From an uncultured Bacilli bacterium (GTDB taxonomy: Bacteria; Bacillota_I; Bacilli_A; RF39; UBA660), in contig CANRAH010000005.1 of the NCBI GenBank assembly GCA_947628565.1, positions 1 to 64,000 of the forward strand: 64,000 bases of DNA, in the 5' to 3' direction. Both the position numbers and the translations under genes were made by a program. The notes beneath the pieces were generated by a model. It was not told the DNA's origin, searched no databases, and was given only the letters and a program-made list of their open reading frames with translations. Below, one piece after another: positions 27,322-60,212 of the stretch; position 1 is the first letter of the stretch, and every line of letters begins with the position of its first letter.

Positions 27322-27344
27322 AAAACACCTCCTAATCATTTAAT

Positions 27345-27465
27345 ACCAATAAAAATGTCCTACATACACGTAGGACAAACTGAAACTTATTTTAAGTTCC
27401 TCGGTAGGATATTTAAGAATTCTCACCTACTGTCTACGGTACTATTATTTCCAACTCGAATTTAT
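27345..27465 (-). ncRNA. Ribosomal protein L10 leader
   Basis: minus strand GTAGACAGTAGGTGAG..ATATCCTACCGAGG...GTCCTACGTGTATGTAGGAC. Confidence 0.85.
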
Positions 27466-38399: not shown

Positions 38400-38478
38400 T
38401 TTTAAACTAAGACTCACCATTAAGGTACTTACGTTTCAAAACCTTTTCTGTGTGGTTGTAGAGTGAGGCCCTACACGT
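38400..38478 (-). ncRNA. Ribosomal protein L21 leader (putative)
   Basis: CGTGTAGGGCCTCACTCTACAACC...CCTTAATGGTGAGTCTTAG directly upstream of rplU. Confidence 0.65.
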
Positions 38479-40924: not shown

Positions 40925-41268
40925 ATATTTTATAAGCCATGTTCTGTTCTCCTATATAGGAGCGACAAATATTTATCTACTTAAAACTAAGTCCCTAGAT
41001 TAGTTCATTTCCTTTTCTAGAGTTCCCCTACCAAAATTTGGGTTTCTCACTCGCGGGGTTTACCACGTTCCACTTCCACAATTTCTTGCTTATTCGTCAC
41101 TTTGGCACTTTTATACTTAATCTAACCATATTAAAACTTAGGTTATTTCAGAGCCGTTAGCTTACGCTACCAAAAGTTATTTTTTCCTTTTGCACGAACA
41201 CTACAACCATCTCAGATTGTGTGAGCATGGACTTTCCTCTACATTATAAAAAATGCAGCATTTGTCAA
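40925..41268 (-). ncRNA. rnpB: RNase P RNA
   Basis: minus strand GTAGAGGAAAGTCCATGCTCACA...GGTAAACCCC...GAGAACAGAACATGGCTTATA. Confidence 0.92.
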
Positions 41269-41272
41269 AATA

Positions 41273-41599
41273 TTATTCTTTGCCATAAATTATTTTTTCT
41301 AATTTTGAAATGCGTCTTAATATATCAGAATTAGAAACATTACCGCTACTACTTTCCTCAGATAAAACATCAAGTTTAGTCTTCAAGTTTCTGATTTCTT
41401 GTTTTAGCCTAATATTATCTTCAATAAGATCCTTCTTATCTTTTTCTAATTCACTAATTATAGAATTCATCTCTTCATAATCTTTTATTATAACATCTAA
41501 ATATTTATCAACTTCTTGTGGACTATAACCTCTTGTATTTATTTTAAACTCTTTTTCTAAAATATCATTACTAGTCAAAATTACTCTATCTTTGTACAT
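41273..41599 (-). CDS. gpsB: Cell division protein GpsB/DivIVA family (track ORF starts at 41614)
   Basis: LTSNDILEKEFKINTRGYSPQEVDKYLDVIIKDYEEM. Confidence 0.92.
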   Translation of the reverse strand: MYKDRVILTSNDILEKEFKINTRGYSPQEVDKYLDVIIKDYEEMNSIISELEKDKKDLIEDNIRLKQEIRNLKTKLDVLSEESSSGNVSNSDILRRISKLEKIIYGKE

Positions 41600-57576: not shown

Positions 57577-58173
57577 TTATTTCAATTTATTAAATTTACT
57601 TACATATGGCTCATATATTTCTTTATAATCATTTAAGGACTTATCTACATCAATCATATAATTTTGCATAATTGCATTATATTGTTCATCATCATAAAAT
57701 TCATTAACTAATTTTCCACCTAATGAAACAATAGTTTTCCAAGACGCTAAATTATCTTTATTACAACTTAACATAGCATCTTTTATTCCATATTTTTGTA
57801 AAACCTTAAGTCCTAAATATAAATTTATTTTATTATATCCTTTTCCTCTTTCAGATGGTCTTATACCATAACCTATATGTCCACCCAATTTTTTTAATTT
57901 ATCATTAAGAATTAAACGAATATTAATCATACCTACTATTTTATTATCATTTTCTCTTACCAAAAAATATGTTATTTTTGGTACTTTTTCTTCATTGGGT
58001 ATCGTATTATAATCTTCTTCTAATTTTTTTAACCAACCTTCATAATCATCTAAATATTTTTGAATGCCTCCACTACCATTAATATTAGAATTATATTTAT
58101 AGTGCTCCTTAATATAATCAAGTGCGTCTTCCTTTCTTTCGATAGAGGGTGTTTCATATTTTAATTTTTCCAT
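57577..58173 (-). CDS. GNAT family N-acetyltransferase
   Basis: VGMINIRLILNDKLKKLGGHIGYGIRPSERGKGYNKINLYLGL. Confidence 0.88.
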   Translation of the reverse strand: MEKLKYETPSIERKEDALDYIKEHYKYNSNINGSGGIQKYLDDYEGWLKKLEEDYNTIPNEEKVPKITYFLVRENDNKIVGMINIRLILNDKLKKLGGHIGYGIRPSERGKGYNKINLYLGLKVLQKYGIKDAMLSCNKDNLASWKTIVSLGGKLVNEFYDDEQYNAIMQNYMIDVDKSLNDYKEIYEPYVSKFNKLK

Positions 58174-58406: not shown

Positions 58407-58449
58407 AAAAAAGTGCGGTATTATACTATATAAATAACTCCGTACTTTA
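58407..58449 (-). terminator. Candidate terminator of RT-GNAT transcript
   Basis: minus strand AAGTACGG-N21-CCGCACTT followed by TTTTG. Confidence 0.5.
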
Positions 58450-58553
58450 CGTGTAAATGTTTTAACTCATATAATGCTTATATCCTCTCACTTGTCATAA
58501 TATTATTATAAATTTTTTAAATGCCAATTTTTAAAGGATAAGTTATTTATTTT

Positions 58554-59045
58554 TCAAAGTTCAAATAAATATATATTTTCTAAATATTTATCTCTAAATA
58601 AACGATTTCCTATATATTTTCCACCAAGATGTTTATAAAAATCATTTGCTGGATTTCCATTTAAACATCCTATAATAATTTTTTTTATTCCATGATTTAA
58701 TATTTTTTGAGTAGCATAATCATATAACAATTTACCATAACCATTTTTTTGATATTCCTTTAGTATATATAAAGAATGTATTTCAGCTGCATTTTCATAT
58801 TCTTTATTTTCTAAAGTGAAATAAACCCATCCAATTATTTTATTATCTAACGTTAAAACATAATAATTTGACTGACTATTAATATTATTTTTTAGTCTTT
58901 CAGCATTTTCTGTTTCTCCATTTAATAAATTAGTTAATAAATCATCATCGACTATTCCTTTGTAAGTGGTATTCCAAACCGTAGCAATACAATGCGCTAA
59001 TTCTTGTGAATCTTCTTTTTTTCTTTTTCTAATTATTGGTTTCAT
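58554..59045 (-). CDS. GNAT family N-acetyltransferase (possible retron accessory)
   Basis: AEIHSLYILKEYQKNGYGKLLYDYA; ATG 26 nt downstream of RT stop with AGGGGAA SD. Confidence 0.85.
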   Translation of the reverse strand: MKPIIRKRKKEDSQELAHCIATVWNTTYKGIVDDDLLTNLLNGETENAERLKNNINSQSNYYVLTLDNKIIGWVYFTLENKEYENAAEIHSLYILKEYQKNGYGKLLYDYATQKILNHGIKKIIIGCLNGNPANDFYKHLGGKYIGNRLFRDKYLENIYLFEL

Positions 59046-59071
59046 ATTATTTCCCCTATTTATAAAATTAA

Positions 59072-60025
59072 TTAATAATAATTTATTAAATTTTCTAGAA
59101 ATTTTTTATATTCATTAAATTCGTTATCATTTTCATTTATTTGTAAAACATACAATATTTTTCCATAAAGTATATTTAAATATTTTAATTTATCAATATT
59201 TATTTTTTTCTTTTCCATATGAGAATTTAAACCAAACTTTTTTATATAATATACTTCTTGTCTTATTGCTTTACGATATTTTGAACTAACTTGTGCTTTT
59301 TCATTTACTATAATTCCTGTTACATTTTGGCTTGCTGATTTATGAACAACATGTATTTTTTTATCATTTAATTCTAATCCCAACTTATATAGCATTTTTC
59401 TAACTTTAATTATTATTTCACTTGGATTAAAATTTCCTGAAAAAGTCATATCATCTGAATATCTTGTATATGATATGTTCTTTTCTTCACACCAATTTCC
59501 CAGTATCTCATCAAATTCTTTCATAACCAAATTAGAAATATATGCAGATGTTGGTGAACCTTGAGTTAAATGCTCATCATATGTACATAAATATGTTAAT
59601 AACATCCCTACAGATTTTGGAAAATATTCTATAGAAAAGCAAGAATTATATATATCTACAAAAAATATATTTTCAAAGAAATCTACAATATCTAATTTCA
59701 ATATTATTTTTTTATTAATATGTGGAATAGCATTATCTTTTAATGATAAACCTTTATGATATGCTTTAGCATATTTTGATATAGATTTATTGTTAAGGAT
59801 ATTAGTTAAAATTTGCTTTTGAATATGCTTTAAAAGTGAACTAGGTTCGTGTATAGTTCTATATTTACCATTCCTTTTTCTAATTTTATATATATTATAA
59901 TTTTTTTCTATATTGTTACTAATAGAATATAATGTTTTTATATACTTCTTTTTATCTTTACAATTAAATAAATCGAGAGATAGTAAAAATTCATTACATT
60001 CTTTTGTTCCAATATATTTCCACAT
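59072..60025 (-). CDS. Retron-type reverse transcriptase (track ORF starts at 60040; SD-supported ATG at 60025)
   Basis: NAIPH (NAxxH), LKLDIVDFFENI, QGSPTSAYISNLVM, YTRYSDDMTFS, NVTGIIVN (VTG). Confidence 0.92.
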   Translation of the reverse strand: MWKYIGTKECNEFLLSLDLFNCKDKKKYIKTLYSISNNIEKNYNIYKIRKRNGKYRTIHEPSSLLKHIQKQILTNILNNKSISKYAKAYHKGLSLKDNAIPHINKKIILKLDIVDFFENIFFVDIYNSCFSIEYFPKSVGMLLTYLCTYDEHLTQGSPTSAYISNLVMKEFDEILGNWCEEKNISYTRYSDDMTFSGNFNPSEIIIKVRKMLYKLGLELNDKKIHVVHKSASQNVTGIIVNEKAQVSSKYRKAIRQEVYYIKKFGLNSHMEKKKINIDKLKYLNILYGKILYVLQINENDNEFNEYKKFLENLINYY

Positions 60026-60041
60026 TTTTACTACCTCCACT

Positions 60042-60199
60042 GAATTGCAGCGCTAATGATATTATAATTTGGAGATGGACTAGCGAAGCTACTACACAAC
60101 GTGTAGATAAGTCCTTTGGAAAATTACAATTAATCGTCTTAACTAATTTAATCCCTTAACGACTCGTTAAAGTAGGAATAAATCCAATCACCACTGCAA
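60042..60199 (-). ncRNA. Putative retron msr-msd ncRNA
   Basis: a1 TTGCAGTG (60192-60199) pairs with a2 CGCTGCAA (60045-60052); msr-like hairpin TTAACG-AGT-CGTTAA (60156-60170); msd-like stem ATTGTAATTT/AAATTATAAT (60121-60130/60061-60070) enclosing GGACT/AGTCC and two hairpins; directly 5' of RT. Confidence 0.8.
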
Positions 60200-60203
60200 A
60201 AAT

Positions 60204-60212
60204 ATTATATCA
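60204..60212 (-). promoter_or_regulatory. Extended -10 promoter of the retron
   Basis: minus strand TGATATAAT (TG-N-TATAAT), ~5 nt before the a1 repeat. Confidence 0.7.

Follow-up and report, generated by a model that had tools for sequence, protein, structure and literature searches.

Does a reverse transcriptase (RT) gene that lies between a structured RNA and a GNAT acetyltransferase gene mark a retron with an unfamiliar effector, or a retron with no effector of its own? The question is raised by a 64,000-nt stretch of DNA (the window) from an uncultured Bacilli bacterium, in which promoter, msr-msd RNA, RT and GNAT had been read from the letters as one tripartite system. We conclude that the locus is very probably a stand-alone retron of the Ec107 type and that the GNAT gene is a bystander. 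The retron itself, comprising promoter, msr-msd and retron RT, holds as originally predicted and is supported by both the RT family and the covariation of the noncoding RNA (ncRNA). The window leads to approximately 45 relatives in gut Bacilli that carry the same RNA, have no effector and occupy many independent insertion sites, a comparative set with which the function of an effector-less retron, its mode of movement and the importance of individual RNA features can be studied. From a single locus, the RT-GNAT pairing could have been misnamed a defence system, and the comparison guards against that.

The cassette occupies positions 60212-59072 of the minus strand and consists of an extended -10 promoter, a structured RNA of ~155 nt, a Shine-Dalgarno sequence and the RT gene. 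The features, all on the minus strand, are as follows:

60204-60212, minus: extended -10 promoter element TG(A)TATAAT (TGaTATAAT), read from the sequence, with a predicted transcription start at ~60197
60034-60199, minus: whole retron ncRNA (msr-msd), matched by covariance model R1 (162 bits, E 3.5e-29; the model's 38 sequences include that of the window)
60192-60198, minus: a1 repeat TGCAGTG, pairing with a2 (alignment columns 2-8)
60191, minus: candidate branching G, within TRGYG and directly after the a1 duplex, invariant in 38/38 sequences
60154-60185, minus: msr stem-loops (covariation, helices 2 and 3)
60185-60175, minus: msr stem 1, a short GGA/TCC stem
60172-60154, minus: msr stem 2, a CTTTAACG-AGT-CGTTAAGG hairpin, whose AGT-loop hairpin is also found in E. 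coli Ec107
60061-60130, minus: msd, a long stem enclosing a CTACAC/GTGTAG hairpin (covariation, helices 4-6)
60046-60052, minus: a2 repeat CGCTGCA (alignment columns 210-216)
60034-60038, minus: Shine-Dalgarno GGAGG of the RT gene, read from the sequence
59072-60025, minus: retron RT, 317 aa, Ec107-like (PADLOC, identity to the E. coli RT, tree)
58554-59045, minus: GNAT acetyltransferase (Pfam Acetyltransf_1), a neighbour judged not to be part of the retron

The extended -10 element expected ahead of the ncRNA is seen at 60212-60204 and is kept in nearly all homologues, where the alignment of loci places TGNTATAAT at the same position ahead of a1. The hairpin and U-tract thought to close the transcript at ~58.4 kb proved to be at chance level, with a fold z of -0.5, 54 of 200 shuffles folding equally well and a scan for terminators returning no terminator-like site. 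No boundary, whether terminator or other, was found that would place the GNAT gene within the retron transcript.

The reverse transcriptase among known retrons

The window RT contains all three motifs attributed to it, namely NAIPH (the NAxxH of region X), VTG (region Y) and the YSDD core; the RT call stands, and only its length is revised, from 318 to 317 aa, ATG 60025 being the most likely start. Across the loci of the clade, some of which are truncated, NAxxH is present in 44/46 and VTG in 42/46. The top PADLOC score of the window RT is to RT_Ec107-like (421.9 bits), followed by RT_III-A (346.6 bits), and the group II intron RT model of NCBIfam gives it just 43.5 bits. In a maximum-likelihood tree, which contained no DGR RT, RTs from Bacilli grouped with that of E. 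coli in a single clade (100/100), itself nested within the RTs of type III-A. Scores and tree together assign the window RT to the retrons, apart from the RTs of group II introns. The window RT thus combines a best match to RT_Ec107-like with membership of the clade that holds E. coli Ec107, although the latter has a long branch, so that its exact position within the Ec107-like clade is unsure, and an unusual composition. Purifying selection on the RT is strong, with an omega of 0.144 between the window RT and that of its sister locus (L018), and of 0.06-0.17 for the 15 RT pairs of lowest dS.

Ec107 is classed as "type III-unk"; it has long been known and, to our knowledge, is an orphan among retrons for which no accessory gene has been reported. 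The pyrE-ttk (slmA) interval, which we take to be the insertion site of Ec107 in E. coli, holds an RT with a YCDD motif that scores 437 bits against RT_Ec107-like, shares 39% identity with the window RT over 310 aa, stands in place of an intergenic palindrome present in K-12 and occurs in 378/5426 E. coli genomes, at one place in each. Both the YCDD motif (PMC6868368) and the replacement of a 34-bp palindrome (PMC6868368) have been reported for Ec107, and it is by these two traits and the PADLOC model, rather than by a match to the original Ec107 entry, that this site is identified as Ec107. Ec107 (Eco5) and the window retron share the RT_Ec107-like family (319 and 317 aa, respectively), an RNA matched by the same covariance model with a1/a2 and an AGT-loop hairpin, and a bare msr-msd-RT cassette that lies right after a gene stop codon and has no effector gene. 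They differ in the catalytic motif (YSDD in the window, YCDD in Ec107), in the AT-richness of the window retron, in location (many chromosomal sites for the Bacilli members, whereas Ec107 sits at one fixed E. coli site) and in that the msd and branch point of the window retron are predicted.

The closest RT outgroup is type III-A (PRTase, winged helix and RT; e.g., the Vagococcus lutrae plasmid NZ_CP116505, L221), whose ncRNA also lies directly upstream of an RT of similar size. In true III-A relatives, PRTase_III-A and WH_III-A genes stand upstream in Vagococcus and a PRTase gene also in Faecalibacterium (L049, L011), whereas the window clade has neither at its loci, and at the window locus no PRTase and winged-helix pair adjoins the RT. 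The lineage probably descends from type III-A retrons, with the PRTase and winged-helix effector genes lost. Another type III-related retron without PRTase is Retron-Sda1, which combines a type III RNA with HipA/DUF3037 instead (PMC12548924); Sda1 has a replacement defence pair, whereas nothing comparable recurs in the window clade. Two separate observations were made among the other RTs. In Pontibacter, an RT_III-A-like retron (L052:3706-4589) is preceded, in place of PRTase, by a DUF4365/PDC-M02A protein and by another whose end resembles WH_III-A, possibly an effector replacement like that of Retron-Sda1. One genome (G003) carries a second, distant RT (30% identity; L017, G003:C71:631-1344) that adjoins an ATPase-like gene.

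Covariation in the msr-msd RNA

The structured ncRNA proposed upstream of the RT, with its a1/a2 repeats, is borne out by covariation and by the model match. The single-sequence fold of the window ncRNA has a z of -2.2, and the alignment of 38 homologues supports the a1/a2 pairing, two msr stems, the long msd stem and its internal hairpin. In this 40-pair structure, 93.1% of cells are paired, compared to 33-46% when the structure is slid by 1-3 columns, and two-sided changes occur in 26 of the 40 pairs (11.4 in shuffles), the typical swaps being GCAGTA/TACTGC and GCAATA/TATTGC, together with T-A to A-T where the repeat ends. For a1/a2, 98% of cells are paired and 4/7 pairs show two-sided changes.

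Model R1, built from Bacilli RNAs only, also matches the E. coli Ec107 RNA (L207, E 6e-6; L208, E 1e-6), which places the two RNAs in one homologous group; it gave no match on five type III-A-like loci. Across 145 related genomes, R1 is found as one copy directly upstream of the RT in 10/10 genomes with an Ec107-like RT and in 0/135 of the others, so that RNA and RT are linked. Neither the window RNA nor its Ec107 counterpart in E. coli has an Rfam family. The ordinary Rfam matches lie elsewhere in the window, namely RNase P class B (40928-41273), an L10 leader (27341-27457) and an L21 leader (38400-38467).

The TGnTATAAT promoter would transcribe the msr-msd RNA together with the RT. As in characterised retrons, the a1/a2 duplex would then allow priming by the RT at the invariant G that follows a1, a role assigned to G 60191 because known retrons have their priming G in the corresponding place. 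By the same analogy, the RT would copy the msd stem, the predicted template, into a branched RNA-DNA molecule (msDNA) with an expected ~75-80 nt of DNA, which presumably remains RT-bound.

Neighbouring genes, insertion sites and possible function

If such an RT-msDNA complex is made, on what does it act? Across ~47 Ec107-like loci, many of them from metagenome assemblies, no recurrent neighbour was found beyond orthologous insertion sites, the genes at other loci including those for YjbR-domain and ferritin-like proteins, a ZIP transporter, lexA, pyrG, metK, an AAA ATPase and others (some names, where Pfam gave no match, were read from the protein sequences). The cassette holds no accessory gene, as in the E. 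coli order pyrE-RT-slmA. Because no linked effector exists at ~46 Bacilli loci or at the E. coli locus, a toxin-antitoxin scheme in cis is unsupported. The AAA ATPase, upstream in 6 loci, was considered as a partner and rejected, since those loci represent one lineage of sites; 10 further homologues (≥53% identity) have no adjoining RT in the 1.5 kb of flanking sequence retrieved.

In place of the cis scheme, a partner that belongs to the host or is unlinked seems likeliest, though unproven. We tentatively suggest, at somewhat less than even chances, that the RT-msDNA complex is a phage or stress sensor that acts on a host-encoded or unlinked partner and not on a toxin of its own. Slightly more speculative is the broader proposal that a toxin-less retron lineage is kept by selection in both Bacillota and Pseudomonadota, that its msDNA complex needs no effector dedicated to it and acts either directly or via a conserved host protein, and that the ~1.15-kb cassette travels into host genes at their 3' ends.

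That the retron instead has its own effector encoded in trans, elsewhere in the chromosome, appears rather unlikely. The strong purifying selection on an RT without any linked gene and the lack of a cis partner across the ~47 loci would be explained in this way, but such an effector would need to travel with an often-moved cassette, and the ancestral PRTase is absent from all ten RT-bearing genomes tested. A trans PRTase partner was set aside on the result of that search, whose single divergent query recovered its source locus and a 26%-identical one but could miss distant PRTases.

The distribution of the cassette bears on whether it has a host function at all. Upstream genes are co-directional in 40/44 loci, several of which share one ancestral insertion, and their stop codons typically lie 180-240 nt ahead of the RT start, so that the RNA starts almost directly past the upstream gene. 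In related genomes, filled and empty versions of the same site were recovered between pyrG and the ZIP transporter gene (filled in L183/L184, empty in L185) and between rluB and spoVS (L116/L117 compared to L119/L120), and the retron is inserted at several different sites. At pyrG-ZIP, the cassette is flanked by the stop codon of pyrG on one side and, on the other, by a hairpin that is present in the empty site. Insertion ahead of the terminator of the host gene fits this site, and at E. coli pyrE a palindrome is replaced; as a general rule it is nevertheless unsupported, terminator-like hairpins after the RT being no more frequent over all loci (19/45) than in shuffles (88/225). For the window retron, no empty site was found, its close relatives lacking the window gene order. 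Viral contigs contained no relative, all phage and plasmid matches were below 60% identity, and the plasmid matches inspected were other retron types or had annotation too incomplete to tell.

A selfish or neutral retroelement cassette, spread by horizontal transfer and without host function, would account for the many insertion sites, for the patchy presence of the Ec107-like RT (10/86 family genomes) and for decayed copies such as a broken RT (L178:994-1501), an msr remnant without RT (L181:702-850), L048 and others. We nonetheless regard it as improbable, more so than an effector in trans, in view of the low omega, the intact motifs in most copies, the lack of any mobility gene in the cassette and the long retention at orthologous sites (at least 7 genomes at pyrG-ZIP; the E. 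coli pyrE-slmA fraction given above). Under the favoured reading of a stand-alone retron, the lineage would persist in the form of a compact cassette of ~1.15 kb, which has entered the chromosome at many sites and mostly follows closely behind a gene of the same direction.

The adjoining GNAT gene

The GNAT open reading frame was correctly described: it spans 58554-59045, starts 26 nt past the RT stop and has its own Shine-Dalgarno-like GGGGAA. Its proposed membership of a tripartite RT-ncRNA-GNAT system fails on recurrence, as a GNAT gene adjoins the RT in 1/~47 Ec107-like RT loci, that of the window, and in none of the other ~46. A YjbR-domain gene takes its place at the sister locus L018, and the nearest GNAT homologues (77% identical), from two genomes of the same genus that lack a window-type RT, are solitary beside hsp20/mnmA. 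Co-occurrence of the GNAT and RT families is not significant (p = 0.24, own genome left out), PADLOC has no match for the GNAT, and we found no paper on GNAT as a retron effector.

Recent recruitment of the GNAT as a toxic effector restrained by the RT-msDNA complex is therefore highly improbable, even with its position close behind the RT on the same strand and the type III precedent of Retron-Sda1 (PMC12548924), given that other RTs have unrelated genes equally close; non-recurrence, the sister locus and the solitary homologues all speak against it, and it was rejected. We judge the GNAT gene to be the next host gene, an unrelated neighbour of the stand-alone retron. It is followed by a second, different GNAT gene (57577-58173), of which the genome holds a paralogue at 61% (G000:C1:179910-180497).
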